Shown here: one piece after another, positions 20,901 through 64,000 of the stretch
Position numbering within the stretch: position 1 is the stretch's first letter
Layout: each line of letters begins with the position of its first letter
Program-made: the position numbers and the translations under genes
The notes under the pieces: model-generated
What the model saw: the letters and a program-made list of their open reading frames with translations, nothing else
Databases searched by the model: none
What the model was told of the DNA's origin: nothing
Assembly (NCBI RefSeq): GCF_018873765.1
Contig: NC_057919.1
Location: 63,440,484-63,504,483 of the forward strand
From: Telopea speciosissima
Taxonomy: Eukaryota > Streptophyta > Magnoliopsida > Proteales > Proteaceae
Direction: 5' to 3'
DNA length: 64,000 nucleotides

Positions 20901-23900
20901 AGATGACTAAGACTGTAATAAAAGAAATAGCCATACATAGAGTAAAATGGTGGATCCAAAATTTTGAAGCTACCCCAAAATAGTGGGGATGAGGGTTTCA
21001 TGATCCACAGATAGGGACTGACATCAGTGCAGGAAAAGCTAACTGGAATCAAATCTCACAATTCAATAATTGTATCACTCACAGAGATCACAAATGAATT
21101 AGAAAGCAATTTGTCGGTTCCAAGGGAAAGCTTCACCCAAAAAATATCATTATATATCAAGAAACAAAATTAACTTTTGAGTTGCATATTAAAAGTTTAG
21201 TGTATATGTTGCATGCAGAATTTTGAGGACCACTTACCTTCTTGCTTCTTCATCCCGTAGTTTAGCATCCATCTCCTTGCTTGGAGGATATTTTGGAAGG
21301 CTTGAAGGCTCACATGCATAAGGTTTGGTTGTGAAGAACTGCAAAACAAAAACCACGTGGTTCACTGAAGGGATGATATTCTATAGAAAACATAGTATAA
21401 AGGGATTTTAAATTCACTCCAACAGGATTTCAAGCATAAATTTCTGGCGACGTAAAGATGGAATTCAACCAGATCAGTGGTTACTATTTTGTGCTGTTTC
21501 TGATAAATAGTAACAACCAGATCAGTTGTTACTATTTTATCCAAAAGATTCACACCAGATACTATCAACCCACAAAGAAAAACATCACATGTTAAAACAT
21601 TTAGTACCGTCACTTGCTTTCTCCTTTCATATTAATGAACAATACAGTGCTATTTTTCCAACATATCTAGTTGTTAGAGACAGCTAACCTATGTTCTAAT
21701 CCATTTTATAGGCATCAATTTTTTTTTAAGAAAAGCTAGAGAACAGCATACAAATTAATAGGTCTCAGTTCAGTTTTAAAGGATGAAATGACAAGGAATA
21801 TTCCGATTAAAGTCGTGCATGAATGGATCCCCATTCCTAGTGGATGTGATCAAATTAACTCCGATGGCTACTTGGGTAATGCTGGTCCCAGAGACATAGG
21901 TGGGGTTATATATATATATATATCTATGGTGACTCTGTTAGAGCGAAATTACTTTCGCTTTGCACTGCTCTAAAGCTGGTAAGAGAAAATCACAATTACA
22001 TCATGGCATAAGTGATTCAGCAATTGTGATTGGCTGGTTCCAACAAGATGGTGTATACCACGGAAATTTTTTTCTTTTATCCCCCCCAATGGGTAAATGT
22101 ATGAAAATAGATAGCGACTCAACCCGGGTGCCATGATGATTTCTCACATTGCACATTAGATTTATCATTTGGTCTCCCCCATTTCAGTTTTATTTGATTG
22201 GAAGCTAAGATTAGCTAATTCCGTTGCCGCTGATCTTGATAGGCAAGGTGTCGTTAGGCCAAGATCTGTCGTGGGGGTCGATATTCCTCTGACATTTGTG
22301 TTAATATAGCTCTCTTAGTCTCTTTTATGGTTTGAGCTAAGAGGATTCTGATCCCTTTATTGTTGTAGAGTATTCTACCAACATACACACCAGAGTGGGT
22401 GATCCAAGACCTCCCATTGCAGGATCAAGAGAGACTACCTGGTACCTCAAATTCAAAACCAAGGAGAATCCAGTGCAAAAGCATCAAATATGGCATCCAA
22501 GAGATACAAATATGATAGCTTCCACAACCTTCATTAGTAGCTTGCCTGCCCTACCCCAAGCATCCAAAAATTTATCCCAAAAAAGTAAGATATTCTTAAT
22601 TGAGCTATGGAGTACAGACAGCACAAGTAAGCCATAAGAGAAGGGGAAGGGAAGAAGAAGAAATCGCATGCTCTGATTGAAAAAAGATATAGCTTCTTGT
22701 AAGATACCATGTTCCTCCCCACCACAAGTCCAAGGTATTTGCCAGAGACACATGGTACATTTCCAGTGACAATACTTACCACCCCTGTGAGCAATCACTT
22801 GGATAAAAAGAAGGGGAGGGGAAGATGAAGAAATCACATGCACTGCTTGAAAAAAGACATAGCTTCTTGTAAGATACCATGTTCCTCCCCACCACAAGTC
22901 CCAGGTGAAGAAATCACCTGTGAGCAATCACTTGGATAAAAAGAAGTATTTCTTCATTTCCAGTGACAATATTTACCACCCCTGTGAACAATCACTTGGA
23001 TAAAAAGAACGGGAGGGGAAGATGAAGAAATCACATGCACTGCTTGAAAAAAGACATAGCTTCTTGTAAGATACCATGTTTCTCCCCACCACAAGTCCCA
23101 TGTACTTGCCAGAGACACATGGTACATTTCCAGTGACAATACTACATTACTACCCCCCCTCCCACGGTGAGCAATCACTTCGATAAAAAGAAAAAAACCC
23201 TTACAATACAGAGGCTCAAACACAGTCCACTGCACACAGATGATAAGCACATGGATGTATGCACTAATCACTATGCACTTCAGTAACAAGGGAACAAATG
23301 CTTCCAGACCATCCTTATCTGTATGATCAAACAAGTTTTTTGCTTGGTATCCAAAAGAAGAAAGGGGGGAAAAGTCTGTAGCATTCACATCATACTAAAC
23401 TAGACAAATACAAATGCACTCAAGGAATTTTGGAAAACTACAAATGTTCGTTTTTGACTTTCCGATAACTAAAAGACTAATCAAGCAAAACATGCAAATA
23501 AACCAAATATATGGGGTTGACCGCCTAGCTTACAGAAAGGGAGACAATATATAACAATTATACATAGTAGATGCTGCATTGCATCACAATTATTGAAAAA
23601 TAAAACAAAGGAGTAAATATCTGAAAGACAAATGGAACAAAATGAGAACTTACCTCACTATTCAATGCATCCGTAGCAGTCAAACGTTCAACCGGATCAA
23701 TAGCAAGAAGAGTTTCAATTAATGGCAGCGAAGATGGTGGAAAATCCTTAAAAGTCTCTGCTATGCATCTCTTGTATGGTTGTTGGGGCTTAAATATGGT
23801 TGCATGGGGCAACTTTGACTTTTTCCAATACTCCTCAGATGGAGAGCCACATAGCTTGAAAATTTTGTGCAGTTGCTCGACCTAAATATCAGAAGAGAAT

Positions 23901-25614
23901 AAGGTCAGTGGCAATTGAGATATTTTAATAGGATACTACACTTACATACTTAGATTAAGGAAAGAAGCCCATTCACCACAAACTATACAAAAACCCAGTA
24001 CTGGATGTTAACAGCATTGGGACATCACATTTAAGTCAGTGCAAATGCAGCAGATTGAACATTTCCTAGCAAATATATAAGCATGTGTCATTAAAGATTC
24101 CCTGCCAAGGTATAAGAGTACATCTCAAGATACACATGTACACATTTAGTCTCAGTGTCTCACTATATCCAAAAAACGAATACACTAGGTCTTATCATAT
24201 TATATCCATTTGAAACAGGAATACATTACTCGGCATCTTGACTGATTAACTTGTTTTTACTCATCGACCAAAAAATTTGTTTTGCTTAAAGTTCGGAGTA
24301 AAAGTATATGGTACCCTTCAGATGAAACATCTAATACTTCCCAATGAAATTTGAAAGGAACTTCTTTTTTTTTGGGGGAAGGGGGGGGGGGGGGGGGAGG
24401 ACAAAACTATAAAAACAAACTCAGACAGTTCAAGGCGGTGCAAACACCAAAATTACCTCTGTACGCCCTGGCATTATGGGCTTCCCTGCCAAGAGCTCAG
24501 CTAGGATGCAGCCTGCACTCCAGAGATCTATACCTACACCATAATCAGTAGCCCCTAGAAGAAGTTCAGGCGGCCGATACCAAAGCGTGACAACCCGACT
24601 AGTCATTGGTTGCTTGCGGTTGGGATCAAAGAACGATGCCAACCCAAAATCAGCAATTTTAAGTGTTCCTTCATTGTCAATAAGGAGATTAGACCCTTTA
24701 ATGTCACGGTGTAATACACCACCATTGTGACAGTGCTCAAGTCCTGACAGTAGCTGGTGCATATAACATTTCACCTGCCATTCAGGAAAACACAAAGTAA
24801 GAAGCAGAGGTTACTTAAAGTATATCGAAACAAAACCAAAGCTAACCTGAGATTCTGTAAACTTGATTCCTGGGCTTGCAGCGAGTCCAGCCAAATCATG
24901 CTCCATGTATTCAAATACAAGGTACAAACTACATGACATTCTTGATGTCACCAAACCCTCCAACTTCACAACATTAGGATGATCAAGTCGCCGTAGGATT
25001 AGAATTTCTCTAGCCATAAACTTCACACTTTCAGGCTCCAAATTGTCGAACCGGACCTTCTTCAGGGCAACAATTTTCCCGGTCAAAGTATCTCTAGCTT
25101 TGTATACATTGCTGTAAGTTCCTTGCCCAATCTAAGAAATATGAGAGTCAGAGCATCATCATCATAAACTAAACTAGATGCTTTTATATCTTTCTTTTCT
25201 CTTTTGGGGAAAGGGTGGGGAGAGCAACTGATTTACCTTATCGAGCTTTTCGAAGGTGTCAGCCCGACGAGGAGTCCAACCATTGATCGCCTCACCAGCA
25301 ACAGCAGAGAGCCAAGAAGGCCACCCAGCAGCGACCTGCTCCCCATGTACATTCTTTGGTGGGTTACTCAGTCTCGGATTCTGCTTCGACCTTCTCCTCT
25401 CCCCACGTGATCGTTGACTCCCATCCTGATTCTCCTCTTTCTGATTCTCCCCATTCTGAACCTCAGTGGTCTCGATCGTTGACACTGAGACCTGCAATTT
25501 CCTCCCAGATGGAACAGACAAGGTCCTTTCCTTCTCCCTATCAACCTCCTTCTCTTTCTCCCTCACATCCGAACCTACCACGGACGAAACCTCTCTTCCA
25601 AGCACACACCCCAT
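14957..25614 (-). CDS. CDK-like Ser/Thr kinase with myristoylation motif (At1g54610/IBS1-like)
   Basis: Cyclin-dependent-kinase-related Ser/Thr kinase of the plant MGC-starting group (At1g54610, IBS1/At1g18670). Exons on the minus strand: 25614-25237, 25131-24847, 24774-24457, 23881-23654, 21338-21238, 20323-20206, 15277-14957. All introns are GT-AG and phases agree, giving 582 aa. Gly2-Cys3 after Met1 forms an N-myristoylation/palmitoylation signal, so membrane attachment is likely. The kinase domain begins near residue 123, with Gly loop IGQGTYSNV at 127-135, ATP lysine K150, HRD at 243-245, DFG at 263-265 and WYRPPE after the activation loop. All catalytic residues are intact. The C-terminal tail after about residue 405 is basic and low-complexity, as in the family. 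A 4.9-kb intron before the last exon carries SINE and LTR insertions. A 5' UTR intron is probable (acceptor near 25620, donor near 25949). Confidence 0.93.
15559..15735. mobile_element. Partial hAT-like element with ACCGA interior
   Basis: It starts TAGGGGTGTCAAAACC, the same end as the other small elements here, and continues with degenerate ACCGA/CCGAAA words. A matching right end and target duplication were not found, so it is truncated or rearranged. It lies in the 4.9-kb kinase intron. Confidence 0.4.
16144..16306 (-). mobile_element. Au-type SINE
   Basis: Read on the minus strand, this is the Au SINE: a GGTGCAAGGGTAGAGGTTG-like head, then an RNA polymerase III B-box-like GGTTTGAGTC (16244-16253 complement), then GAAAGCAGGGGTAAGGCTG, GACCCTCCCAAGACCCCGC and GCCTTGTGCACTGGGTATTC, closing in a T-run on its own sense strand. 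Au SINEs are tRNA-derived, moved by LINE machinery and widespread in angiosperms. The copy is nearly full length and lies in the last kinase intron, in the same sense as the gene. A second copy is at 54808. Confidence 0.85.
16683..17090 (-). mobile_element. LTR of a non-autonomous retrotransposon
   Basis: On the minus strand it runs from TGATGCAGGTACACTACC (17090) to CCCACCACCA (16683). It is homologous to the LTR at 35183-35631: both contain a GTGCACTCTT...GTTTGAAGCCAGTGTGGC segment and GGATACCCAACTDGGTTT. A purine stretch CCGGGAGAAT directly before the minus-strand start suggests a polypurine tract, making this a 3' LTR. The matching 5' LTR was not seen. Confidence 0.55.
17091..17545 (-). 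pseudogene. Retroelement internal ORF remnant
   Basis: A minus-strand frame starts at 17542 with [10 protein letters not shown] and is rich in Leu, Ser and Asn. It then breaks by frameshift near 17370 into a second frame. Near the LTR junction it reads [12 protein letters not shown], which runs into the LTR start. I do not recognise a catalytic domain. It is best read as the internal remnant of the element whose LTR is at 16683-17090. Confidence 0.4.
17860..19690. other. Kinase intron section, unassigned repeat-like DNA
   Basis: It contains poly-T tracts (18039-18085, 18309-18325) that cause a spurious Lys-rich minus-strand frame. A pyrimidine-rich segment at 19030-19600 has many CCCTAA/AACCCT words. 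The TGTGGATTAG...AGACTCCTAGGC stretch at 18694-18745 looks like LTR U3 sequence, but its boundaries could not be set. No gene is supported. Confidence 0.35.
22637..23196. repeat. Three tandem copies, about 165-190 bp each
   Basis: Three direct copies share GGGGAAGATGAAGAAATCACATGC-like starts, AAAAAGACATAGCTTCTTG, CCATGTTCCTCCCCACCAC and GAGCAATCACTTGGATAAAA. The middle copy has lost its ATTTGCCAGAGACACATGG segment and gained a short extra repeat of the junction. They lie in the 2.3-kb kinase intron 4. Confidence 0.85.
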
Positions 25615-31578: not shown

Positions 31579-34500
31579 TCATATTCGAAGCTTACCCAGC
31601 TCTAAATTCGCTGCCTTCACATCTTCTGGCTCCTTAGTTCTCTCACTAGCTGATAACAATCCATCCTGCTTAGTTTCTGGGATTTTCCTTGCCGGTGGTG
31701 ATGCACAGACCGGGACAACTGATCTGATTTGAACTGCTGGAGCCATCATATTAGCAGGCATTCCTCCAATCATCATTCCTCCAGGCCAAGGTCTAGATGC
31801 ACATGTAGGAGCTGCAGTCCTGAATGCAGCTGGAGCAGGCACCCGAGGATTTGAGTTTTCCAGTCTGGGGCTCACTGAAGATGCAGGCCCAACAGTTCTG
31901 ATCATAACAGGAGCTGCAGTTGCAGGTAGTCTAAAACCTTGAGCCATCACTGGAGAAACTCCTCTGGGGGGATGATGTGGCCTGGGACTGGAGTGAGATG
32001 AATCAAGACCGTGCAATTGACGCAACCGGAAGTCAGCATGACCAGGGTTTGTCGGTCTGGACCCATTTCCAGCATCCGAGGTCCCCCGAGAGGTCCATTC
32101 AAAATGATCACTTTGGCCTCCTTCCAGTTGTACAGTGTGCCTAATGCTGGGATCGGACTCAACATTCTTTTGTTTATCCACCTCCTGTGTTGTCTCTTGG
32201 ACTAATGGTTCTGCACGACCGCCACCAGAAACAGGAGAATTTGCAGCTTCAAATGGAGAAATTCCAGAGGCATTTGACCGTATATTCACTTTCCGGCCAT
32301 CACCATCTGCATCACCATGAAGCCATTCCTCACCCATTTGTGTTCTCTCTTCCTGAATCTCTTGTATGGTTACCTGGGACCTTCTCCCAACAGGAACTGG
32401 CACCAAAGGGTTTGAAAAGTATAAAGATGGACCTGAGGTAGGCATTGCAACTCCTGGCACAGCCTGGATAGGTTGTTCTTGCTCCCTTAATGGAACATAG
32501 TGCCCATGTTCTGGCCGGAATATAGACTGAATAAATGGAATAACATGAGGACCAGGCGGAGGAGTTGGTGCTACTGGATGAGTCAACAGGTGGCTCTGCT
32601 GCTGGGATGCCTGTTCCTGCTGCCACATTTGGTACATCGCCATTTCAGGAAAGAAATTAGAATAATTCCAACTTTGGTACTGCATTGGGTACAATGATAT
32701 GCTTGTGCTACCAGGCTTTGTGGGCCTACGAGCAGGAGCTGATCTCCGACGCCCACGTTGCCGATCATTTTGAGTTGATTTATTTGCTTCCGCTGGACGC
32801 AAGCTAGCAAGGGTGCGAGCCACGACAACCTGTTCCTGCTCCTCATTCCCTTCAGACTCCAACCCAGGAGAGGGCGAAGAAGAGCCAAGATGGGACACTG
32901 CATGAGTACCAATGAGAAAGATAGTTAGCAACCATATCAGGCTAATATATCCCTTTATTCACAGTTTAATTAGTTATCCAAATTGAACAAGTATACACAA
33001 TCAGTTGAAAGGGCATGGTATTGATTCAACGAACGTGATGATCGATGCTTTGGATCACGGCGAGCAAATTCATAAAAGAAGCAGCATATGGCATATCAGA
33101 AGAAGGGTATACAAGGTGCAAGAAGCCTGCCCCCCCCCCCCCCCCGGCAGAAAAAAAAGATATCCATGGACCCACAGGAAGGGATATGTGCACCAACTGT
33201 ATTTGCACAGTACATAACTGAATCTTAATAATTCCCTCATACAAGAATAGGAGACTCTAGAAAAGATCAAAGGAAAAAGAAAGACATACTTTGTTTCAGG
33301 GAAGACCAAGCAGCCATGGCAGCATTCTTCTGTGCTTGCTTCTTGGTCTTAGCTGGCTCTCCAGTAAAGCTCATTCCTGCAAGCTCAACTGTGCATGAAA
33401 ATACAGGAACATGACCTGGTCCAGATCGAACAGTCGTATATACAGGAAGGTTTAACCCAGCTCTGTGGGCCGTCTCTTGAAGCAGATTCTTGTAAACTCC
33501 AGTTTCATCCTGTGCAGCAGAAATATACCAAAGGAAAGAACATGAATTATCAGTTACATTCTCCCAGAGGAAGGTACAAATAAAAACTGAAAAATAAATC
33601 CGTAAATTTTATATATAATTGTTGAGATGTTGGAAGTTATAGAGGTATAGTCTCATGTCAGTTAAGTTCGGTCCTTGGTGCCTTCATATACTTGAGGAGC
33701 AATATCCACGTAATGCCTTAAAGTTTTGGGTTGGACCCTCCAACAATAATAATGACGTTTCACACAAGTACTTCATAGAGAGCCAAGGCAATAATCATTT
33801 CCAATGATTGTTCAAACTTGCAAAGTATTAATCGAAAATAAGATCTGCATTCACTTCAATGTAATAATAATGCCTCAAATGAGGTACATAGGATTCTTGA
33901 GGAGTGTAGCCTTGATCTTCTAATACATACAGGCATTACAAGTTTAAAACTACTCTTGAACAATATGGATCATCACCTAGATGAAATCGAACCTGATCTT
34001 AAGTGCAAATCAAGCACACAAATAACAGAATGACACACAAACATAATCTACCACATTTTTCCCATATCCCCGGTGGTTCAAGCAGAAATCTGATTGTACT
34101 GAAACTAGGGTAAAGTGAACAGTTTAATAGGTAGAATTGGTCTGTGAATTATGATCCAGATCTGATGGCTGGATCTCAAAGTATGGAGAAATTCTACTCC
34201 TACTAGAAAACTAGAAAACTAGAAAACATGCCAGAATTGCAGAACTGATTCAGGTATTCCAGCAGAAATCAATAAAGGCTTGATGATTCAGGGGGGGAAA
34301 AAACTGCATTCCATTTCAGAACAGAAAATCAGAATCTGAAAATTTGCAGAAAATTAATATTACTAGGAAACCAGAAATCACATGGGATTTTGAGTTCTAA
34401 AACAGAAACTGAACTAGAAAACTAGAAAGACAATTGAAATCAGGCTATGGACTATGGTAGAATCTTATTCAGTAAACCAGATCAGCAATAAAAATATCAG

Positions 34501-37500
34501 TCAAAGAAAACCTGAATTAAAATAAGATTGCAAATAGGATATGGCCACAGGATATGGAAGTTGGAAGTTTTGACCTAAAATTGATAAGAGTAATACAAGG
34601 AGGATAGAAAGAACCAGATTAGGAATCCACCCAATCTTCAGGCTTGGAATTCTTCAAGTACACCCAGAATCCACTAGGTAACTACTGAATCCACAACAGC
34701 TTGTTTCAGAAAAACTGAAGCTTATTAACTCATACATTCGTGTATGAGCCTATGAGGCCATAGGCCATGACATTTATCTATAGAATTCATAGACTGTCTC
34801 TAACAGTTCTAAACTGACATGGAATTCAAACTACTACTTGCAATAGTTAAAAACAGACTAGTATTTGACGCTAATCAAACTGTGACTCAAAAGAAAAAAA
34901 AACATAGACTATGAATATAATCTGGATTCTGGACTCAAATTCCGAATAATTGTAGGACTTTACTTGTAGAATCCTTATCCAACCTGAACGAGGACAAATA
35001 ATCAAAGTCAAAACAAGAAAAGAAATTGAAACAGAACTCCAAATCAGATGAGGCGAGTAAGATTCAGACTAGGTATAAGATTCCCAAACAGAATTGGATT
35101 CTTAGAGAGAATAAGAATAGGACTCCTAGAAAAACTAGGATTCTGGCCTTGCCTTCTTCCTTCTCTGGGACTGTAGCTTGTATGGTGGAGGGCCGGTTAG
35201 GAGAAGAGAGGAAGCTGGGAAAAATCAGAGTTGCAGAGGGAGAGAGGAGATATCGTGTAACAAGAAGAAAAAGGGGGGGGGGGGGGGGAAGAGTGCACAC
35301 ACAGCCACACTGGCTTCAAACCATAACTCAACTATTCCATTCTATCAATCTGTCTCCAACGATAGGGAATTACATCATATATAAAGAGCAATAAAAGACT
35401 CCGAATTACTTCCTACAACTTAAATGATCTAAAATAGAAACTCAATAAAACTCAAATTGAAAATTTCCCTACAAGTCTAATAGCTACCCCAAAATAAAAG
35501 ATTACATATCTTTCCCAAATAAAATAAATTCTAAATATCCTACTTAACAAGAACATGGTTGGGACACTGTTCATCTTGGTTTGGATACCCAACTGGGTTT
35601 GGATCGGTCCAGGGTAGTGTATATGCATCATTGTACCTAGCTGCTGCATCAGGTTCTTTAGGTCATCCCTGGGTGACCAGATGCTCATATTCACCAACAT
35701 GTGGCAAAAGGAAAATCCATTAGGTTTCCACCCAGTTAAGTGTCTGCATCTTTATCAAATAGAACCTGTGACTTGCTATACTATGTCCAAATAAGGCTCT
35801 TTGGCTGCTTCTAAAGGCCTGGTGTTTAGTCTTATTGTCCTCCTATCAAGAAGAGGGGAAGATCCTACTTGACCTCATGAAATAAGTCAGCAGCAAAATA
35901 TCAACTTTAGGGGGTCAGTGAAAAGAAAGTTGCCATAAAGTGCAAAGAGTAAGGCATGCATAGTTCACTTCTAAAAGTACGGAAAGGATTTGAAATTGAC
36001 AAACCAGCTAGAAAAGAAGTGTAACATAAAATTTCCACCAAATGCCTAAAGTACAGTTAGAGGCCCAAAAAATACAATATCTACTTAAAAGTGTCAAAAT
36101 CAAGGAAGACAGGTGAGCAAATGCTCCCCACCAACCCCAAGCTACAGGACAATGTACAAATCCCTCTAGTACTTTTGCAGACATGGGCAGGTTTTTCCAC
36201 CTCATTATTCCAATTTCCAATATATAAATTTTGTAGACTACTTCTAGCAATGTAAAACTCGTTATCTCTAAAAGGAAGTCAGTTTCCACAATACTGAGGA
36301 TACAACAACAACAAAACTCAGCCTTATCCCAACTAAATGGGGTCGGTTAAATGGATCCTTTCAAAAACAAAATAAGAGGAATGAAGAAATTCGATAAGAA
36401 AAGTAAGTAATGGAAAATGAAAAATGAAAGTAAGAGAAAAGAGGATAGCCCAGGAAAACAGGAAAATTTCCATATGGTGTCAATAACGTAGATCCTTGCC
36501 CTCCAAAAGGCTTTATCTGATATCATACTTGGCACAAGACCCAAACTAAGGATGTCATTCTTCACAACCTCACCTATGGTCATTTTAGGCCTGCTCCTAG
36601 CTCTTTTAGCTCCTTCAATCAGCATCAAATCACTTCTCCGTACTGGGGCGTCCCCAGGCCTCCGTTGCACATGGCCAAACCGCCTTCGCGGAGCTTGTTG
36701 TTGATCGGGGCAACTCCCACATCAGCCCTAATACGTTTGTTCCTCACTTTATCCTTCATAGTTTTGCCGCACATCCATCTTAACATCCTCACCTCTGCAA
36801 CACATAGTGATGCATGGAGAAATTGGCTCACAAGGTTCTTTTCCAAAACCTAGGCCAAATGCTGGTCCAAAGGCCAGCACCAGCCCAAGCCGCAGGCAGG
36901 TCCTTGTTGTCCCAACCTGGCCCTGCTGAGTTTATTTTATATAGTTCTTTTTGGGTCCACCTAGGTCCATTATTTTGGAACAGTTGTTGGAGAAAACTTT
37001 TGGTATTCGTAGTGTCTTTTAGAATTCCAAGAGTTCTTTTTGGGTCCATTATTTTGGAACTGCTGTTGGAGAAGACTTTTGGTATTCTTAGTGTCTTTTA
37101 GAATTCCAAGAATTAGTTAATTTTCTTGGTTTATGTTTCTTATGTACTGGGGGTGGGGTTCAATATTTTGGGTTTAGTTTTCTATGTCTTGGGGGCAGAT
37201 TTCTATGTCTAGGATTTGTTATCTATGTATGGGGAATTCCTAAGAGTCTCCTTATTGCTATTGTATTGTACTCAAGATTTCTGTCTCTATATATATAATG
37301 CAAGTTGTGACTGCTCTCAAAGGCAACCCAGAATTTTGAAAACAAAAATCCTCTTGTGAGAAACAAGAGCTGTGTCCCACCAGTCTACCAGCCGTAGGAG
37401 TCCCACCTGGGTTGTTGAGTCTCACAGCTCTTGTTTCTCACAAGGGTTCTCACAAGAGGATTTTTGTTTTCAAAATTCTGGGTTACCTTTGAGAGCAGCT

Positions 37501-40500
37501 AGGACTTGCGTTATCTATAAGGGTTCTCACAAGAGGATTTTTGTTTTCAAAATTCTGGGTTGCCTTTGAGAGCAGCCACGACTTGCATTATATATATAGA
37601 GACAAAAATCTTGAGTACAATACAATAGCAATAAAGAGACTCTTAGGAATTCCAAAACCCCTTTGGAATTCCCCATACATAGATAACAAATCTTAGACAT
37701 AGAAATCTGCCCCCAAGACATAGAAAACTAAACCCAAAACATTGAACCCCACCCCCAGTACATAAGAAACATAAACCAAGAAAATTAACTAACTCTTGGA
37801 ATTCTAAAAGACACTAAGAATACCAAAAGTCTTCTCCAACAGCTGCTCCAAAATAATGGACCCAAGTGGACCCAAAAAGAGCTGTATAAAATAAGCTCAG
37901 CAGGGCCAGGTTGGGACAGCAAGGACTTGCCTGCGGCTTGGACTGGTGCTAGCCTTTGGACTAGCATTTGGCCCAGGTTCTCAAAAAGAACCTTGTGAGC
38001 CAATTTCTCCCTGCATCACATAGCTTCAATATATGACACTTCTTAACTGCCCAACATTCTGCCCCATACATCACAGTAGGTCGGACAACAGTCCTATAGA
38101 ACTTTTCTTTAAGCTTTAAAGGAACACGTCGGTCACACAGTACTCCAGTCGCACTTCTCTACTTCATCCATCCTACTTTAATTCTTTGCGAAACATCATC
38201 TATGACACCTTCTTTGTATATGATAGACTCCAGATATCTGAAATAGTCACTTGGCGGTGTCTCTCTCTCCTCAATTTTCACCATATCTTCATCCATCATA
38301 GTGTGACTAAAGTTGCACATTATATACTTTGTTTTTGATCTATTAATCTTAAAGCCCCTTGTTTCCAAGGTCGATCTCCATAACTCTAACTTAGCGTTAA
38401 TCTCTGCTTTTGTCTCATCCACCAAAACGATAACATCGACGAAGCGCATACACCATGATACTTCATCTTGGACGTTCTTGGTTAATTCATCCATGATAAG
38501 CACAAACATATAAGGGCTTAGGGCTGATCCTTGATGTAACCCAACCGTTATTGGGAATTCCTTGCCCTGTGGCCTCCCACAGATCTCATATTAGTCATCA
38601 CACCCTCATACATATCTTTAATTAACTCTATATACTTATTGGACACTCCTCTCTTCGCAAGAACATGTCGGATTAAATCTCTAGGGACTCTGTCATAGGC
38701 TTTCTCCAGGTTAATAAAGACCATATGGAGATCCTTCTTGCTAGCTCTACATCTTTCCATGAGCCTCCTCAATAGGTAGATAGCTTCTGTCATGGACCTA
38801 CCTGACATAAAACCAAATTGATTCTTCGAGATATGAGTCTCTCTTTTCAAACGGGCTTTAATAACCTTCTCACAAAGTTTCATAGTATGACTCATCAGTT
38901 TTATGCTTCTATAATTATTCCACAATATTGAGGATGGGGGGGAAAAGGGTAGGAGCATAGAAATAGGTGCATAAGTGTGCATCTCATAGAAGCATGTTAC
39001 TTTTCCTCACCTGAGAGAAATAAAACTTATTGCTCCACTTCTTTCCAAGTAAAATTTGCAGGTCAAACCAATACAAAAGGTTAGGATTTTACTTGAAATT
39101 TTTCGTTTCACACATCTTTCAAACAGAGCCTACAAGGGAAAGAAAGGCAAGAATGCAGAAATTGGTCAATTGATGAATGACAACTAACAGAAGCATTTGG
39201 AAAATAAGCATCTCTAAGTTGAACAAATAGCCCAAATATTACCAAAAGATAAATGGGGAACTTATTCAAACTATCAATGCTATAACTTAGTAGTCGCACT
39301 GACAAAAATTTCAAATTTTATGTCACATCATTTCGCCACTAACAAAGGAGTAACAATGAACATGGACAAGGAAACTGCTGGAGATGAAAGTGTGAAAATA
39401 TCTAGGCCTACGATGGCAAGTACCTATCATCCATGTGTAAAAATTGTGTGGCCCAACACAAATTATTTTGTTATTTTTGCATATTATTGGACATTTCTAC
39501 ATTTTCATTTTGTGGCATATGACATGTATATTTTGTGGCTTGTAAAATTGATTAAATGGTACCATGGTTTTTGGTCTACTAGGTTAGTGGACCGGGTTTG
39601 TGGATGATCATCTCGATGAGCCACTTTGTAGTCCTCGACTTGACCGCACCTATCATGATGTATTATGTGCTTACGTGTGCATTGTTGGACTGTGATATGT
39701 TTGAGGGGTACAAGTCAAAATTGCTCAGATTATGGGAGACATGAGAACTAGTCTCTTGATGGTCAGTACAAATAAGGTCTTTGAGTCCATCCATGAAAAG
39801 ACCTCGTGTACGTTGAGTGTTGATCTTAGTGACTAATGCTCCATTGCCAGTGACTTAAAGTGTACGCATACCTATAAATTGCCAGTTTAAAAGGTTTTTG
39901 TTAGCAAAACCGAGAATGAGAGTATTAGAGAATGGCTAGAATAATTTCATTGTTAGGTAAGCCCTCTATTATAAATAGAGGGAAAATTACAAAGGGGACA
40001 GAAATACCCCTAACTAGCTGACTCTATAAGAGCAGCAGTCTATACCTAATGAATAACAATTAAACTACCCCAAAAGATCAGAATACCCCCACGATATTCT
40101 GGATTACATATTCCAATAGATTTATTATCAAATGGTTTTGTGAAAAATGTTTTTATTTATTAATATAAAAAAATATTATATATTTCCTCTCTTTGCAAAA
40201 CCGATTTTGATTTGTTTTACAGTAAGGGCAGTTTTGTATATTTGGTCCCTATTTGTTTTGGGTGAATAAATAATTTAATTCATTACCAAAGGAAAAGAAA
40301 GGTGGGGGAGAGACAGAGCGTACAAGGGCACAAGGCCACACACAAATTACAAGGCCCACCTGGGAGGAGGCTAAACCTGTAAAACCCAAAGCCCAATGGG
40401 CAATACCCAGAAAGGAAGCCCAATAAACAGAAAGAGAAGGGCAACCAAGTCATTTCCAGGTAGGGAACCACAAACCCTAAACTAACTTTCTCATCTCATC

Positions 40501-43110
40501 TTTGACCAGCCGCCGAGGCAAAAATGGAGCATCACCAGAGCCAAACAGCCAGCCGCTGGCCAAGCAGAGAACCACGGCCAAGCTTGAAGTAGGCCGAGCG
40601 TAGGTGACAACCACGTCGAAGAGGCACCAGCCTTGCAGAGGGCAACGGCAAAGTGGCTGCCGGCCAAGCATAGGCTGCAGATGGCAGACTATACAGCTGG
40701 AAGAAGCACGGTGGCGTTAGCCGAGCGAGCCAAGCAGATCAAACAGAAGACTAACCGAGAAGAGCTTACGGTCAAGCAACAGCAGTCCAAGGGCTGGCGA
40801 CGAACAGCGACTGAGAGCTCCAGCGATGAAGAACGTCTGGCGAGAGAGAGAAAGCAAGCAGGGCTATCGGCGAAGAGACAAGTCATCAGACCAAGCGAAG
40901 AAAGCAACCAACAAGGGAGGGGACCCAGCAAAGAGTAGTTGACAGAGACGAAAGCCCACGAAGCATCGCGACCAGGAGAGACCCCAACGAGCCTGAAGAC
41001 AGACCTAGTGGGAGGGCGACTCGCAGGTCGACAACCCAGGCAAGACAGACGTCAACGATACAACAACCCAGGCAGGCTGTCGACAAGCAGGACTGCAAAC
41101 AAGCAAGGGTGGTGATTGCTAGCACTTCGCAACCAAGCACAAAACCCCAAAGAAGAAGGGAAGAAAGGAAAGGAGAGGAGTTGAAGAAGGGGAAAGGAGG
41201 AAAGAAAGGAAGGGCGAAAGGGGGGGAGGGAAAAGAGAGAAGGAGAAGGGGGGAAGAAGGGGAAGGAGCAGCCTGGCCGTGAGGCCGAGCTGCTCCTCAA
41301 CGGCGTCGCAGGGTTTTCTCTTCTATCGTTAGATTTTCAGTGTCATTCCTAAACTTCAACCTTCTTCGACATCTCTTCTGTCGTTTGATCCCTATTTTTT
41401 GTTTGGGGGAACTTTTGGTAATTATCAAGGTAAGCCCAAGAGGCATTCCGGATATGGATATTAGGTGGCTAGCATGTAGCATCTCACCTTATGATTGGAC
41501 TTTATGGTTGGTCATCTCCACCCTAGAGATATAAATATCTCAAGGTCACAAAGGCAAGGGGATCTTTGGCAGCGCAAAATACCGGGTTGTGGCATACCTG
41601 TCCACCTGGGGTGAGCACCCTAATTGCTTATGAGATCCTTGGAAATTCCAGTGGCTTCATCAAATTGTGATCAAATACAACCTTCTTCTACAACATACTA
41701 AAAGAGATTTACAATCCTCTTCTTCAACTCATTCAACAAAGTAATATAGATTTATATCTCCAAAAAGGTATGTCTTTTTCATTTCATTTTTATTGAACAA
41801 TCTATAGATAGACAAATCTGAATTAGGACTTTGCATTTCATGAGTTGGAATTATATGGTTCGTTGTTTGAGATTCTTCTAGGACTCAATTTCTAATACCA
41901 TGAAGATAGACCTGGACATGATGAAACAAGGATGACAAGGGCTAACTACTCCATTTGGACTTTCAATCTTTTAATAAAATCAGTTTTTCTTAATTCATTC
42001 TACGATGTGTTACCACCTCTGTATTGCACTAACAGATTGACCATAATCCTCAATATCAATTGCCATCTGAACAGTAATAGTTCAAATTCAACATTCTGCA
42101 CTACAATACTGATCTGGAGTTTCTTCCATATGGTATAGACAGACCTCACCCTTTCAATCCCTCGAAGTCCCATCTGTCTTGTTTCAATTTCACAGGTTAC
42201 AACGACGCACCAGCTAGAGATGAAAGATTCAGCTGAACACTGTTTGTAATGTATTAGCATGCTTCTAAGATTCACAATGTTGTTGTTAAAATGTGAGCCA
42301 TGTTGGAACTCGCAGTATTGAGTAAAGACACAAAACACATTCATCCGAGAGTAGTACAATTTAAAATAAGAGGAAAATTTTCTCCAACTACATTACATCA
42401 CATGGAGAACACTGTAAACATCCCTTAATACTTGAAGAGGATGGGGAGCTTTATAAAGAATCTTGGTTGAGGGCCTAAATCAGCCCCCTGATTCTGTTTC
42501 TCCAAATAAAAGTTTCAGGTTGGAGCGACTCTCCACTTTCCCTGTACTATGTTTTTCAATTTGAAATATCACTAGCAGATCTAGAACATGCAGCAGAACC
42601 AAAATGCTGCATATTTTTCATTATAACTTAATGGTCAAGTGTACCTAGTAGCTACCCTTGTCGGTGCAAGAATTAAACTCAAGACTGTTTATCCCAGTTG
42701 ATCTTTGACTAATAGTAATGCATGGAATGCACAGTAACAAAAATAAATAAATAAATAAAATATCAGAAAGGACCAGAAATATAAGCAGCAGAAGAGGCAA
42801 GCAGAAATAAAATGTCAATACAATGACAGAAGATGAAAAGAAAGAGCATCAGTCAGACACCTACCAAAACTCTTGCAGCTAGAGATCTAGAGGGGCCCCT
42901 CTTCGAAAGCGTGTTCAGTGCCACCTCGGCTGCAGCATGCTCTGCTTGCCTCAGGGTGGTGCAGAAGGTTGGACTTTCAAAGGTCTCCCCGTTGAAGTTA
43001 ACAGTGGCTTTGAACCGAGGTGCATGATCAGGTCCTTCACGAATACAAGCATAAGATGGCAGGTTGAAACAGCTTCTTTGAGCTAATTCTTGCAACTGGT
43101 TTTTATACAT
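31579..43110 (-). CDS. DRB2: DRB2/3/5-type double-stranded-RNA-binding protein
   Basis: Double-stranded-RNA-binding protein of the DRB2/DRB3/DRB5 clade, whose members act with Dicer-like enzymes in miRNA and siRNA biogenesis and antiviral defence. Exons on the minus strand: 43110-42865, 33509-33290, 32897-31579. Introns are GT-AG, phases 0 and 1, giving 594 aa. Two dsRBD domains lie at residues 2-70 (opening MYKNQLQELAQRSCFNLPSY) and about 87-155 (VYKNLLQETAHRAG to AAMAAWSSLKQ). The 439-residue tail is Pro/Ser/Gln-rich with VQIRSVVPVC and VMIRTVGPAS, echoing the VTIRTAVPVF repeats of Arabidopsis DRB2, and ends GKLRI. It is longer than Arabidopsis DRB2 (about 430 aa). Intron 1 is 9,355 bp and holds a LINE and a long inverted repeat. 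A 5' UTR intron is likely (acceptor TGTCCAG before the ATG, donor near 43990). Confidence 0.92.
35183..35631 (-). mobile_element. Solo LTR in DRB2 intron 1
   Basis: On the minus strand it runs TGATGCATATAC ... CCCTCCACCA. TTGTA lies on both sides (35178-35182 and 35632-35636). It shares long segments with the LTR at 16683-17090. A run of 16 G (35273-35288) lies inside it. The outer boundary was found by looking for TG/CA next to the duplication, so it is less certain than the homology. Confidence 0.6.
36302..38917 (-). mobile_element. RTE-clade LINE, 5'-truncated, split by an insertion
   Basis: The minus strand encodes RTE reverse transcriptase pieces: SKNQFGFMSGRSMTEAIYLL, VFINLEKAYDRVPRDLIRHV, VSWCMRFVDVIVLVDETKAE (the usual catalytic ADD is altered to VDV), then ADVGVAP and LIEGAKRARSRPKMTIGEVV. 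It ends in the RTE-type 3' tail, GATAAGGCTGAGTTTTGTTG. Direct repeats TTCCACAATACTGAGGAT (36284-36301) and TTCCACAATATTGAGGAT (38918-38935) are an 18-bp target duplication with one mismatch. Without the 1,211-bp insertion at 36808-38018 the copy is about 1.4 kb. It is dead: frame breaks and a mutated catalytic site. Confidence 0.85.
36808..38018. mobile_element. Long inverted-repeat (foldback) LTR-derived element
   Basis: The left arm 36808-37376 and right arm 37423-38018 are reverse complements over almost their whole length, around a 46-bp spacer. The outer ends are TGATGCA...TGCATCA with perfect CATAG duplications (36803-36807 and 38019-38023), as in LTR retrotransposon insertions. Each arm has a TATATATA box and an R/U5-like TGTATTGTACTCAAGAT segment, so the arms look like two LTRs in head-to-head orientation. 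The left arm carries a private tandem duplication of about 70 bp (36965-37105), and the right arm one of about 78 bp (37442-37596). The insertion interrupts the RTE LINE. Confidence 0.85.
38936..42864. other. DRB2 intron 1, 5' part
   Basis: Intron DNA upstream of the LINE in gene sense. A probable minus-strand LTR fragment with a TTATAAATAGAGGG box lies at about 39899-40095, ending TTTTGCTAACA on its own strand. A GC-rich, Arg-codon-rich stretch at 40480-41300 gives long but unconvincing frames on both strands. No host gene was recognised. Confidence 0.4.
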
Positions 43111-44472
43111 GCCTGGACATTATAACAAATATATAAAATGAGCAAAATACAAAACAGATAAAAGGGAAGGAGGGGAGGGGGGGGGGGGGGGAGGGAGTGA
43201 GTGAGGAAAGAAGAAGAGGATAAAAACCCCACATAATTAGAACAAATGACTCATTCCCCATCTCCGGAATTCAGTTTTAGCTCATACTACTTCCAGTAAA
43301 AGAGATAACACCAATGACTTCAACCGACCCTTGTCCCCAGTCGAAGTAATAACCTTCGTTGCCTCAAAACCGTTCTGAAAGTTATTGTTCATTACACACA
43401 CACAAAATCCTGGAGACAGATACTAAGATAAGAATTAACAAAAGTTTAAATTAAAAAAACCCATTAACCTCCTTTGGTTGGGTAAAACCTACAAAATCTC
43501 AATTCTGACACAAGCTCATCGACATGGAAGTGAACTAGAAAGGCTCAAAGCTCGTCAACATAGCAATATCAACCATTTAGGGCTCATGAAGCCCATAGCT
43601 TCCAAAAATACCCAGTGATAAGAAACCAACCAAAAGGCATTCCATAAAGGCAGATGAGATGAAAAAATTGCCAAAAATTATCTGATCCGCGTAATTCACT
43701 TCTATAGAACATCACGTCGCATTTACGAATTCCCCCATGAATTCTAATCAGCATTCTTGAAGGCAAAAACAAAGCATTTACGACACAAAAATTACCTCTA
43801 TCAGATCAACCGAAAAACTCAATCAGAACAGAAACCCATCTGAAACTAACCTAAGAACCTATAAGGTACCCCGTAAAAGTAAACAAGCCCATACTACAAG
43901 ACTACGAGTGACACCAGAAGAAAACCAAAACCCATTTCATTTGGTCTATCAAACTCAGCATAGAAGGTGTGAACTTGATAGATAACTGACCTCAGGCCCT
44001 CCAAGTGCCGAATTGACGACCTGCAAGCCGTTCAAATGATCGGATGATCGTCGGAGACTGACATGAGAATCGCCGGAAAACAAGTTGAAGAGGGAGTAGA
44101 GATGGATCCCTAAAAGAGCATAGGTGCTTAGAAGATCTGAACAACAAACTGAATTTTCACACTATTTTATGAGATATCTATCCTTCCATTCTCTCTCTCT
44201 CTCCTTTTTTTCTGCTATTGCTCACTCCTTTTTTTTTTTTTCTTTTTTTTTCGGTAGAATTGCTGACTCCTTTCACTACTACGATAAAGGAGCTACTTTT
44301 TCATCAGTCATTACTACGAATTAAGTCTGGAGGTTTTGCTAATGTACACCGACCTCACTAAATTCCCTCTGAGAGTTTTACCTAAATGCCCCCCATGTGT
44401 CTATCTCTCTCCTCCTTAAACAAAGGGATAGAGTTATCTTCTAATATAGAGAGAAGAGAGATAGACTCGTGG

Positions 44473-47855: not shown

Positions 47856-48176
47856 TTGAGGGGGAGGGGGAGGGACCAGATCGGGCTCCTCTACAGCATA
47901 GGGGTGTGCCGAACATCTTTAGGCGCACTACCAGAGATCACCAAGTAGAAGAGCTCCCATTTGGATGGCGCGGATTGAGTTAGGACAGCTGAGCATGGTG
48001 CACATTCGATCAACAGTAGCATGACTCACAAGACTTGGAAGTTGTGCCAGCTCGATCCGCATTGTCCAAATGGGAGCTCGTCCACATGGTGAGCTTTGGT
48101 GGTGCACCAGAAGATGTCTGATGCACCCTTGTGCTGTAGAGGCACTCGTTCTGAGCGGGACCCCCCGTCCCTTCAA
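47856..48176. mobile_element. Foldback element, about 145-bp arms
   Basis: Nearly the whole segment is an imperfect inverted repeat: outer TTGAGGGGGAGGGGG against TTGAAGGGACGGGGG, CTCTACAGCAYAAGGGTG, ACATCTT, and GAGCTCCCATTTGGAYRATG with its complement CATTGTCCAAATGGGAGCTC. The loop lies at about 48000-48035. No target duplication is visible. It codes for nothing. Non-autonomous MITE is the simplest reading; a transcript would fold into a miRNA-precursor-like stem. Confidence 0.7.
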
Positions 48177-59689: not shown

Positions 59690-62600
59690 TGTTAGTGTTA
59701 GAGTTTATATGTTGTAAGGGTATTTTAGGGACTAGTTAGTTTACTAGTTGCCTTATGTTGTAATTCTCCTTTTTCCCTTTTGCCTCCCTAGGGAGGAGTA
59801 TGTAATTTGTTCTATTCTCATTAGTGAAGTAATATAGGTGTGTGAGAGACATTCTCTCTAACACACAACTTTCCCACCGAATTCTCTTTCTCTCCATTTC
59901 TTCATCTTCTTCTTCTCTTCTTCTTCTATTTTCTTCTTCTTTCTTACCTTACATCCATTACCTAAATCTCAACTTGGTATTAGAGCACATTCCGTTTTTG
60001 GTTTGAGAGTCGTCCTCCAAGCTCTCTACCTCCTTTCCCTCTCTTTGGAACCCTAGGTTACAAAGGGGTTCCAAGGAAGAGGCTGATATGTGAAAACTTT
60101 GAAGACATTATGCCATATCTCTTGATGAAGCCTATGGAAGCACTAAGATAGGTCTTCATGTGAAGACTTGGCTGTTTGAAGCCCAAATCAATGAAAGATA
60201 ACCCAGAATACTGTTCCGTGAACAATAATCCGAGAAATTACTGTTCCTTTTTCTGAAACAGCCCTTGTTCTCCCTCATCTTGGCTTTGTTGAAGCTTGGA
60301 CCTGGCCCATTGGAGTCGCCCTAGGGTCCCCTTTCAAGCCCCCAAAACATTGGTTGCAAAGGAGGAAAGCCCAAAGTCCGCAACTCACTTTTTATGCTGC
60401 GCACAGAACTCGCTCTCGGGAAGTTTTTCTTGTTTCTCCTTCATCCAAGGTCAGTTGGAGATGAAATCAGGTCCTGTGGAGTCGCCTTGGAGTCTACTTT
60501 CAAGCCTATATAGGCTCAGCTGGTGATATCTAGCCCTCTTTCTCTGCTACTCCAAACTGTGATGCTCTATAATGCTGCCAGTTGTTGAAATAATGACTGT
60601 TTTGTGATATACTACTGTATTGAACCTTTTGATGGGTTTTACTTACTGAGTTATATTGTTTCAAGATTATGGTTTGTTTTATAATGGATAGAAGGTGCTA
60701 TTGGTGAAGAAGGGAGCTACCAACCTAGATGGTATATGATACTTTCAGCTACTTGGTGTTGGTGAGGTGTGTTGTTTGAGTCTCTCGTGTTGTTGCATGA
60801 TGCCATTACACTTTGAAGCATATGGTGGAATTGGATATTGTTGAAGTATTAGCTTGGTTTGCTACCTGGACTGCAATTACCAGTATTTGAAAATTTCTTT
60901 TTAGGTTGAGAATATACTCCCCATTGGATTTGAGTATCATTTCCTTTTCTTTGGTCATTCCTACATTTTGTCAATTCTTGGTGGAAAAGGCCAGGGCCTA
61001 ACCTAAGAAAATGACAGAGATAGGTTCCACTGTGACCACTGTGGGAAGTTTGGACATACGCGAGTGAGATGTTGGACACTTCATGGTTATCTCCCTGGTA
61101 TACCAGGCAGCAGAAGAGGGGGAGCCAGAGCATGCACCTTGTTGACTGAGGATACACCTATGCGACCTCCATATGGACTATAGACAGACACTGGTGTACT
61201 GCCAGCTTCCACTTTACAAGCCTCTACATTTGGCTCTTCTACTACCTCTATGTGGGTTATTGACTCTGGAGCCACTGATCATATGACCGGCATCTCTCAG
61301 TGTTATGACTCTTACTCTACCTATTATGGTCAGGAAAAGGTTAGAGTTGCTGATGGTTCCTATTCTTCCATTTCTGGTAAAGGTAGTGTCTGTGTTACTT
61401 TATCTCTCTCTCTTGACTCTGTTCTACATGTTCCTCAATTTCATACTAATCTCCTATCTGTGAGCCATCTAACCAAATCCTTGAATTGCTCTGTTATTTT
61501 CTTTCCATCTCATTGTGTTTTTCAGGATTTGGTAACAAAGAGGGTAATTGGCAGAGGCCGTGAGGAAAAGGGGCTCTACCTTCTTAATACAGGTCCATCT
61601 TCTTTTACGACTGCTCAGTCATATGTATGTGGGCGTAATGAGAATAGTAATGTTGACTCTGTTATGTTGTGGCATTAGCGTTTGGGTCACCCTTCTTTTG
61701 GTATTATGAGGGCAAAATTACCCCACCTGTTTTCTTCTATTCCTTCTTCCCATGTGTTTAAGTGTGAACCCTATTTATTTGCCAAACATTGTCGTTCTCC
61801 TTATCCTTATCATGGTCATAGATCTGATGTTCCTTTCCATATTGTGCACTCTGATGTTTGGGGACCATCTCCCACTACTTCTCTATCTGGCTACCGTTAT
61901 TTTGTTTCCTTTGTTGACGACTATTCCAGGTCCACTTGGACCTACTTGATGAAACAAAAAAGTGATGTTTATGATGCTTTTAAAAATTTTTATCAGCTCA
62001 TTTGTACCCAGTTTCATACTCGCATTCAAATTGTTCGCTCTGATAAAGGGGGGGAGTATATGTATGGGGGGCTTCAACAGTTTTTTACTGATCATGGCAT
62101 CATCCATCAAGTTGCCTGTGTTGACACCCCTCAACAGAATGGGGTGGCAGAAAGGAAAAATCGTCATCTGTTGGAAATCACTAGGAGTCTCTTGTTTGGC
62201 ATGCATGTTCCTAAGACTTTTTGGTCAGCAGCCCTTCTTACTGCTGCCTTTTTAATCAATCGCATGCCCTCTAAACTTCTTGGCTCCAAATCCCTTATAG
62301 ACTTGTTGTCTCCTCAGACTTCTGCTTTCTCTCTTCCTCCTAAGGTGTTTGGATGTGTCTGCTATGTCCATGTCAATAAATGTGCTCGGACCAAGCTTGA
62401 CCCCAAAGCACTCAAATGTATTTTTCTTGGATACTCCTCCTCTACCAAGGGGTATAAGTGCTACCATCCTTCTTCCAGAAGGACATTTCTCTCCAAAGAT
62501 GTTACCTTCTTTGAATCTATTCCTTTCTTTACTTCTTCTCATCATCCTCTTCAGGGGGAGAATAGTGGAAATGAAGAGGTTGCTTATCCCTTTCTATCCA

Positions 62601-64000
62601 CCTTTGCCTACTTCTCCGTTTCTGTTTGATATTGGGAAACACAAAGAAGGGGTTGTTGTTGTTGATACTAATACTCATTCAGGTAATGATGCTAGCAATG
62701 AAACAGAAGGGGCTGTTGTTGTTGAAAATGGTTTTGGTAATCAGAAAGATTACCACATTACATACAAAAGAGGTGAAGGGTTGCATAATACAGGACAGAA
62801 GACCTGCCAAGAGCCCTCTTTGGATCCTCATCCTGAGCTCCACTGACCTCATTCAGGTGATATCCCTTCTCCTCCCTTTGATTTAGACCTTCCGATTGCT
62901 GTTAGAAAAGGAAAGAGAGCTTGTACTAACCCTATTTCCCAGTTTGTTTCTTATGATGCTCTCTCTCTCACAAGTCTTGCTTTCACTGTTGCTCTTTCTT
63001 CTGATTCCATTCCCAGGAATCTCACTGAAGCTATGTCTGACCCAAAGTGGAAGCAAGCCATGTCTGAGGAAATGATGGCTCTTGAGAAGAATGATACTTG
63101 GAAATTAGTAGATCTTCCCAGGGGAAGAGTCTCAATCGGATGCATGTGGGTTTATACAATCAAGTATAGGTCTGATGGTGCAGTTGAGAGGTACAAAGCA
63201 AGATTGGTAGCCAAAGGTTATAGTCAAGTATATGGGATTGATTATCAGGAGACATTTGCTTCTGTAGCTAAACACAATTCTATTCGGGTTCTTTTATCAT
63301 TGGCAGCCAATAGGGATTGGCCCCTATTCCAGTTGGATGTGAAGAATGCGTTCCTCCATGGTGACTTAGAGGAAGAAGTATACATGCAGCCTCCTCCTGG
63401 CTTCAAGTTCCCTTTAGCTGAAGGCAAGGTGTGTCTCCTCAAGAAGGCTTTATATGGTCTCAAACAATCTCCAAAAGTATGGTTTGAGAGGTTCAGGCAG
63501 ACTATTCTGAAGAATGGATACTCTCAAAGTCAAGCTGACCATACCTTATTTACTCGGAGTAGTAATGGTACCATTACAGCCCTTATAGTCTATGTTGATG
63601 ACATTATTGTGATTGGTAATGACAGTGTTGAGTTAGCTAGACTGAAGTCCTACTTGGCTCAACAGTTTGAGATTAAAGATTTGGGTCCCTTGAGGTATTT
63701 TTTGGGAATTGAAGTGTCACGGTCCAAGAAAGGCATCAACATATGTCAAAGGAAGTTTGTTCTTGACTTGTTAAACCAGCAAGCTCTCCTATTGAGCAAA
63801 ATCACAAACTAGGAGAAGATTGTGGTCCCCCTCTTGTTGCTGCAGGGAAGTATCAGAGATTAGTGGGGAAACTCATCTACCTATCTATGACTCGCCCAGA
63901 TATTTCTTATGCAGTGGGAGTTGTGAGTCAGTTTATACATGCCCCCAAGAATGGGCACTTGGATGCTGTATACCGTATACTTAGATGCTTGAAGTCCTCC
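59690..64000 (+). mobile_element. Ty1/Copia retrotransposon, right end outside window
   Basis: The putative 5' LTR is about 59690-59971 (TGTTAGTGTT...AAATCTCA); its start is uncertain by a few bases. The Met-tRNA primer site TGGTATTAGAGC follows at 59975-59986. A zinc knuckle, protease, integrase and reverse transcriptase follow in Copia order (protease-integrase-reverse transcriptase). About 1 kb between the primer site and the zinc knuckle has no gag-sized frame. It contains a partly duplicated GGAGTCGCC...TTTCAAGCC segment (60310 and 60479). The 3' LTR is not in the window. Confidence 0.9.
61025..64000 (+). pseudogene. Broken Copia pol (zinc knuckle, protease, integrase, RT)
   Basis: Zinc knuckle CDHCGKFGHTRVRC (61031-61072, CX2CX4HX4C). 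Protease WVIDSGATDHMT from 61253. GAG-pre-integrase RLGHPS at 61679. Integrase core with first Asp in HSDVWGPS and last Glu in PQQNGVAERKN. Reverse transcriptase 63033-63770 with QLDVKNAFLHGD and YVDD at 63591-63602. The RNase H lead-in TRPDISYAVGVVSQF is near the window end. It is non-functional: in-frame stops at 61181-61183, 61676-61678 and 62844-62846, a frame change between 62560 and 62630, and a small deletion with shift near 63771. The integrase zinc finger reads CEPY where CxxC is expected. Confidence 0.88.

Follow-up and report, generated by a model that had tools for sequence, protein, structure and literature searches.

The 64,000-nucleotide window of Telopea speciosissima DNA analyzed here, which lies on contig C4 of the 823-Mb assembly that we searched, contains a near-palindrome of 1,211 bp (36808–38018) within a minus-strand intron (33510–42864) of a gene for a double-stranded RNA (dsRNA)-binding protein that, by resemblance, we take to be DRB2. 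The palindrome is probably (we would put it at roughly 0.8) one insertion of an aberrant pre-integration complementary DNA (cDNA), in which two long terminal repeats (LTRs) were joined tail to tail, in the order U3-R-U5 then U5-R-U3. This assignment is based on the target-site duplications at its borders, on the empty site preserved in relatives of the recipient sequence, on the kinship of the two arms, and on the recurrence of the arrangement at other loci.

Both outer borders of the palindrome are U3 termini, since the two LTRs lie tail to tail. The left arm (36808–37374, plus strand) is an LTR in sense orientation, running from the U3 terminus TGATGCA at 36808 through U3 and R into U5; it matches sense positions 1–228, 154–489, and 492–513 of the LTR copy L002, and its border was compared with those of other copies. 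The right arm (37423–38018) is an LTR in sense on the minus strand, with its U3 terminus at 38018. Between the arms lies a 48-nt center (37375–37422, minus strand), which is U5 sequence of the right LTR and whose left edge is the tail-to-tail junction; with the center included, the right LTR spans approximately 37375–38018 and is without about 83 terminal nt of U5. The inverted repeat consists of three ungapped blocks (identities of 92, 97, and 97%) that cover 36807–38019, and in a single gapped alignment of one arm with the other, 455 of 477 columns are identical (95.4%), two gaps of 79 and 19 nt aside. Next to the center, 22 bp pair without a mismatch. The best inverted self-match of the palindrome scores 459 bits, compared with a maximum of 38.1 bits in 100 dinucleotide shuffles. 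The initial annotation had described a “long perfect-looking hairpin” with a 46-bp loop: the long inverted repeat and a central loop are indeed present, but the arms differ by 22 mismatches and both contain tandem duplications, and the loop measures 48 nt. The duplication in the left arm (36964–37114, plus strand) has two copies 79 nt apart (36964/37043), and that in the right arm (37442–37595, minus strand) has a 77-bp unit (37442/37519). The stretch TATATATAAT in the left LTR (37290–37299, plus strand) is presumably TATA-like. An Rfam scan of 33000–43500 gave no match.

Judged by its relatives in the genome, each arm is an LTR of a dispersed retrotransposon family. The whole palindrome as a genome query gave 134 matches from the 40 scored of 329 candidate places, and the loci that were opened mostly hold a lone unit or units in direct orientation. 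In single copies the unit is mostly 640–780 bp in length, starts with TGATGCA, and ends with TGCATCA. Five of the 12 single copies with both termini read (L003, L004, L018, L020, and L023) are flanked by exact 5-bp target-site duplications (AGGAT, GAAGG, AGGGG, CTAAG, and CTTCT); the flanks agree at four of five bases in two of the remaining copies (L002 and L016) and at two or three bases in five. In paired copies, TGGTATCAGAGC directly follows one LTR border, as a primer-binding site (PBS), and a purine tract, e.g. AAGGGGAGAAT, directly precedes the other border, as a polypurine tract. These two landmarks, which come from other copies because the window copy has no interior, identify the unit as an LTR and fix its orientation, with the TGATGCAGGGAG end as U3; the opposite orientation, in which the U5 ends of the palindrome would face outward, was rejected since the positions of the PBS and polypurine tract reverse it. 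A 23-base pattern of the U3 end (up to three mismatches) occurs at 103 places in the genome, whereas its reversed control occurs at none. Pfam identified no retroelement domains in five interior open reading frames (ORFs), autonomous copies not having been sought, and the family copies read therefore look non-autonomous.

The long inverted repeats, short terminal match, and target-site duplication are also features of foldback or long-terminal-inverted-repeat DNA transposons, such as miniature inverted-repeat transposable elements or Mutator-like elements. An origin as a transposon of this separate kind was rejected once the LTR anatomy (termini, PBS, and polypurine tract) emerged, and we give it almost no weight: the unit usually occurs either alone, with 5-bp duplications, or in direct pairs that enclose a PBS and a polypurine tract, and the junctions of the palindromes read differ from one another, such that the palindrome is not itself the mobile unit.

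The sequence CATAG is present immediately to the left (36803–36807) and to the right (38019–38023) of the palindrome, which splits an older long interspersed nuclear element (LINE) relic within the intron. On one side, fragments of the LINE reverse transcriptase are present in two frames (38162–39006, minus strand; Pfam RVT_1, E = 1e-12 and 1.3e-15); on the other, the relic continues at 36350–36802 (minus strand), a stretch that aligns collinearly with the right flank in L069, L070, and L071, three of the four LINE copies fetched; a Pfam search of 36350–36721 gave no match. A 31-base pattern representing the joined flanks, i.e. the empty site, with up to three mismatches gave 33 matches, comprising 32 other places and the window’s own border. 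Of four of these 32 places that were inspected, three (L069, L070, and L071) match both flanks collinearly (82–88%), the two matches lying exactly 5 bp apart; the fourth, L072, matches only the left flank outside the 31-base pattern. The CATAG duplication, together with the empty site in the LINE copies, therefore points to a single integration of a molecule that already had two U3 ends. The divergence of the arms, the duplication, and the empty site likewise argue against the palindrome being an artifact of assembly.

Pairs of LTRs with their U3 ends facing outward (U3-out) recur in the genome. The survey covered the listed places for two related LTR families of this one genome (100 of 103 U3 ends; for the related family, 100 of 155 and 100 of 135; 100 of 182 U5 ends). 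Neighboring U3 ends less than 3 kb apart in the window’s family form six U3-out, no U3-in, and nine same-orientation pairs; the 113 distinct listed ends of the related family (two scans) form two, none, and five, respectively, at the same spacing. Two wider U3-out pairs were identified among the listed ends of the related family, on contigs C4 (15 kb) and C10 (13 kb). The latter (C10:26592136–26605093; hereafter C10) is a palindrome that was split by a later nested element and has GTATT on both sides. The former (C4:4143895/4159235) was dropped as two independent insertions, because its left LTR has a U5 terminus of its own and is bounded by GGTAT both before and after. The U3-out loci among the listed places of the two families, including the window, total nine. 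Exact 5-bp duplications are present at four of the six with both borders readable (CATAG in the window, GTTGA in L010, ATGCT in L013, and GTATT in C10), and the flanks of L082 agree at four of five bases; the rate of duplication (4/6) is at least that of the single copies (5/12). Two composite loci of other types were also recorded. At L074 (C1:40167408–40168322), which is not a clean insertion, two U5 ends form a 172-bp palindrome that adjoins an antisense PBS and another LTR. At L012 (C11:29973037–29977597), three family LTRs that all point the same way are separated by two intervening stretches, as a direct-orientation complex.

Alignment of 33 LTR sequences and a tree built from them, which do not include the arms of C10 and L082, enabled analysis of the kinship of the arms. 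The window arms are 94.9% identical over 488 columns, compared with 92.4% for the next-best relative of either arm, and are sisters in the tree with a support of 0.96. The L010 arms behave likewise (95.8% identity, sister support of 0.88), and in the ordinary element L011 the identity of one LTR to the other is 92.7%. The kinship of the arms in the window and in L010 fits, on these comparisons, with their synthesis in one replication cycle.

These results bear on whether the palindrome could have arisen by two ordinary insertions, i.e. that of an LTR element into the LINE and of a second, inverted element inside the first, followed by deletions, possibly between 7-bp copies of TGCATCA. Because TGCATCA ends both LTR borders, a deletion could put a U3 border beside the old duplication, and PMC11624286 describes a nested insertion in antisense orientation for Arabidopsis EVD. 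However, such a history needs two insertions, a precise deletion, and the loss of the second U5 end, repeatedly and with the duplications kept, and the window arms are each other’s closest relatives among those compared. It also predicts U5-out pairs as often as U3-out pairs, whereas at less than 3 kb the listed places include eight U3-out pairs (6 + 2) and one U5-out pair. We therefore consider a history of two insertions improbable compared with a single integration of a cDNA that was already joined tail to tail.

The junctions vary among the palindromes read, which implies that no single palindrome has multiplied as such. The junction in the window is located in U5 beside the inverted 7-mer AGAGCTG/CAGCTCT, and those of L009 and L082 are also inside U5. 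L059, L075, and L013 turn at the LTR 3′ terminus, and L010 runs to the LTR 3′ end plus TTTTGG, a 6-bp sequence common to the start of the PBS region and the inverted LTR. C10 passes the LTR end CTACACCA, then AAT, and then TGGTATAAGAGCCAGGTT, which is an 18-nt complement of the 3′ end of methionine transfer RNA (tRNA-Met) with one mismatch, the exact complement of the tRNA being TGGTATCAGAGCCAGGTT. The tRNA pattern GGATCGAAACCTGGCTCTGATA has 12 exact occurrences in the genome, and one place was called tRNA-Met by ARAGORN, which we take to be of the initiator type; CCA is added to the mature tRNA. In eight native stretches beside family LTR ends, the PBS is recognizable in four (up to two changes) and unclear in two (AGTATATGAGTG), and the remaining two diverge at the LTR end. 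After the 12-nt PBS all four recognizable native sites read ATGGCTGG, unlike C10. Plus-strand strong-stop DNA copies 18 nt of its primer tRNA, up to a modified base. C10 carries such an 18-nt tRNA copy, whereas the four recognizable native sites depart from the tRNA after the first 12 nt; its junction therefore resembles fossilized strong-stop DNA. Within this locus, the tRNA-like 18-mer at the palindrome center is present twice by way of an 84% tandem duplication (L080, C10:26592859–26593445). No interior was recognized beyond the PBS on either side in the window, L009, L010, L082, and C10.

We infer that the junction arises on cDNA before integration. Most likely, plus-strand strong-stop DNA (U3-R-U5-PBS) would fail to make its normal transfer, and its 3′ end, paired through a few bases with a second plus-strand LTR or with its own strand, would act as a primer. 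The primed strand would then copy the LTR to its U3 end, and integrase would join both U3 ends to the target. We regard this more specific proposal, of priming on a plus-strand LTR by strong-stop DNA after a missed transfer, as about evenly balanced; it draws on C10, on L010, and on the five loci with no recognized interior beyond the PBS.

The leading alternative, especially for L059, L075, and L013, is strand transfer of one cDNA into another (autointegration) or end joining, in which the U5 end of one cDNA enters the LTR of another such that U3 is at both ends, with the interiors being lost later by recombination between LTRs. In L010, L059, L075, and L013, one of the LTRs reaches the junction with its 3′ terminus intact, and interior sequence is kept on one side in L059, L060, and L075, as this route would allow. 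Contrary to such an origin, C10 continues past the LTR end and through 18 nt of tRNA-like sequence before its junction, L010 has a 6-bp microhomology, and the junctions of the window, L009, and L082 are within U5; moreover, the five loci with no recognized interior would each require two further recombinations. Overall, we view autointegration or end joining as possible, but less likely than not.

Several observations weigh against the derivation of the palindromes from tail-to-tail cDNA, or against its strong-stop step. L009, in which both borders are readable, shows no target-site duplication. Three U3-out loci (L059, L060, and L075) retain interior sequence on one side, and in L060 the U3 border at the far end has eroded into a CT run. 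L013 (C8:61418434–61420783) is a patchwork within one 5-bp duplication, made up of a piece of LTR, an antisense interior that includes a PBS, a polypurine tract accompanied by the start of another LTR, and an inverted full LTR. The L013 arrangement suggests, from the order of its parts, several template switches within one cDNA; given these four loci, not every U3-out locus is likely to have come from strong-stop DNA alone. The one U5-out pair less than 3 kb apart among the 100 listed of 182 U5 ends is that of L074 (C1:40167408), and the U5 scan also lists two wider pairs, one U5-out (C6, 14.7 kb) and one U5-in, with the U3 ends outward (C1:65892373, 6.2 kb). The similarity of the arms could be maintained by gene conversion. 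In the window itself the strong-stop step is not visible, because the junction is approximately 83 nt before the LTR 3′ end, and the 7-nt microhomology (CAGCTCT) is offset by a small misfit. The PBS copy in C10 is one base off and is followed by 15 nt that are unexplained, and the native stretches (n = 8) with which it is compared include two with an unclear PBS and two without a PBS.

The initial annotation had placed a 1.2-kb near-palindrome in an intron of a dsRNA-binding-protein gene, and both the alignment of the arms and the presence of dsRBD exons with GT...AG borders bear this out. The minus-strand exon encoding dsRBD1 (42865–43113, start near 43113) has 42% identity to dsRBD2 by tblastn and is followed by a GT donor; that encoding dsRBD2 (33291–33509, minus strand, end approximate; Pfam dsrm, E = 2e-17) is preceded by an AG acceptor. 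The 9,355-bp intron between them (33510–42864, minus strand), which holds both the LINE and the palindrome, opens with GTAGGT and closes with CACAG. Pfam analysis of the host gene gave dsrm, plus a Dicer-dimerization match below threshold.

It had further been suggested, as a possibility, that the hairpin is related to DRB2 itself, and the location in an intron of a small-RNA-pathway gene and the strong predicted fold are compatible with a hairpin kept by selection as a DRB2 regulator, acting by feedback of small interfering RNAs (siRNAs) or by binding of the DRB2 protein. The comparisons give no support to this relationship: the arms are copies of a dispersed repeat, the arms had no match in the rest of the window (E 1e-3), the hairpin had no match to the two dsRBD exons or the downstream coding frame (E 0.01), and palindromes of the same design are present at other loci. 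The arms also diverge by about 5%, which is less than, but of the order of, the divergence between the LTRs of an ordinary element (L011, 92.7% identity). Conservation of the hairpin for regulation of DRB2 thus seems very unlikely to us, and the host gene looks incidental, because similar palindromes are found elsewhere.

The proposal that a read-through transcript would contain a Dicer-type hairpin fares better, since the minus-strand (gene-strand) palindrome RNA has a predicted fold of −901 kcal/mol, a prediction with no shuffle control at that length. The intronic palindrome should be transcribed with the DRB2-like gene and could, on this model, fold into dsRNA of about 0.55 kb; it is plausible from the origin of the arms that any siRNAs would match the LTR family and not DRB2. 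In PMC11624286, LTR hairpins are considered and sought as silencing triggers in Arabidopsis, with genomic rearrangement and tandem or nested insertions proposed as their origins. A route by one integration gives the LTR-hairpin idea a structure that can be searched for, i.e. U3 on both sides, one duplication, and a junction at U5 or the PBS, and this structure would also leave in genomic DNA a record of failure at the strong-stop transfer of reverse transcription. We propose tentatively, and with considerable doubt, that strong-stop DNA that has missed its transfer repeatedly copies itself into integrable U3-U3 palindromes, such that one step would seed LTR hairpins, some of them in transcribed genes such as this DRB2-like one, as sources of siRNAs against their own family and as a possible origin of LTR silencing.

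Elsewhere in the window, a smaller inverted repeat is present at 47877–48153 (arms of 114 nt, 75% complementary, 49 nt apart), and three direct copies of a 149-bp unit, 71–100% identical to the reference copy, are present at 22588–23103. Beside the latter, 23558–25131 contains ORFs that, from their motifs, are presumably kinase-like. The reading frames at the right window edge (61184–63812) have motifs that we take to be those of a Copia-type gag-pol.

We found no description of inverted U3-U3 LTR insertions in the open-access literature that we searched, which is weak evidence of their novelty. The window palindrome resembles a solo LTR in its terminal motifs, its 5-bp duplication, and its consisting of LTR sequence only; in contrast to a solo LTR, which has one U3 and one U5 border, it has two U3 borders and two LTRs. 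DIRS-type elements have inverted terminal repeats and are not known to generate target-site duplications, and do not fit for this reason, since the window palindrome and its relatives carry such duplications. Autointegration of Ty1 cDNA (Garfinkel, 2006), in which cDNA is also joined to itself before integration, reportedly yields mainly circles, whereas the window case is an integrated linear U3-U3 product.

Mu killer of maize arose from a rearranged copy of MuDR. It is an inverted transposon duplication that has been proposed as a silencing trigger against its own family (Slotkin, 2003 and 2005, as cited in PMC11624286), and the window palindrome is similar in being an inverted transposon duplication in a transcribed place that could yield trans-acting siRNAs. 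Unlike Mu killer, the window hairpin would arise in one step of retrotransposition, and its role in silencing is only putative. The nearest published structures that we found are the complex LTR insertions of Triticeae (Sabot and Schulman, 2007; PMC1950507). They have one 5-bp duplication and unusually similar outer LTRs, and were attributed to template switching, in which reverse transcription takes an aberrant template. These complexes share with the window palindrome a composite LTR insertion, a single target-site duplication, and highly similar outer LTRs. In contrast, the Triticeae complexes, as described there, are dimers in direct orientation that comprise three LTRs and two interiors and result from a switch between the R regions of two RNAs, whereas the window palindrome has two inverted LTRs, no interior, and U3 borders, with the switch probably occurring on plus-strand DNA at U5 or the PBS.

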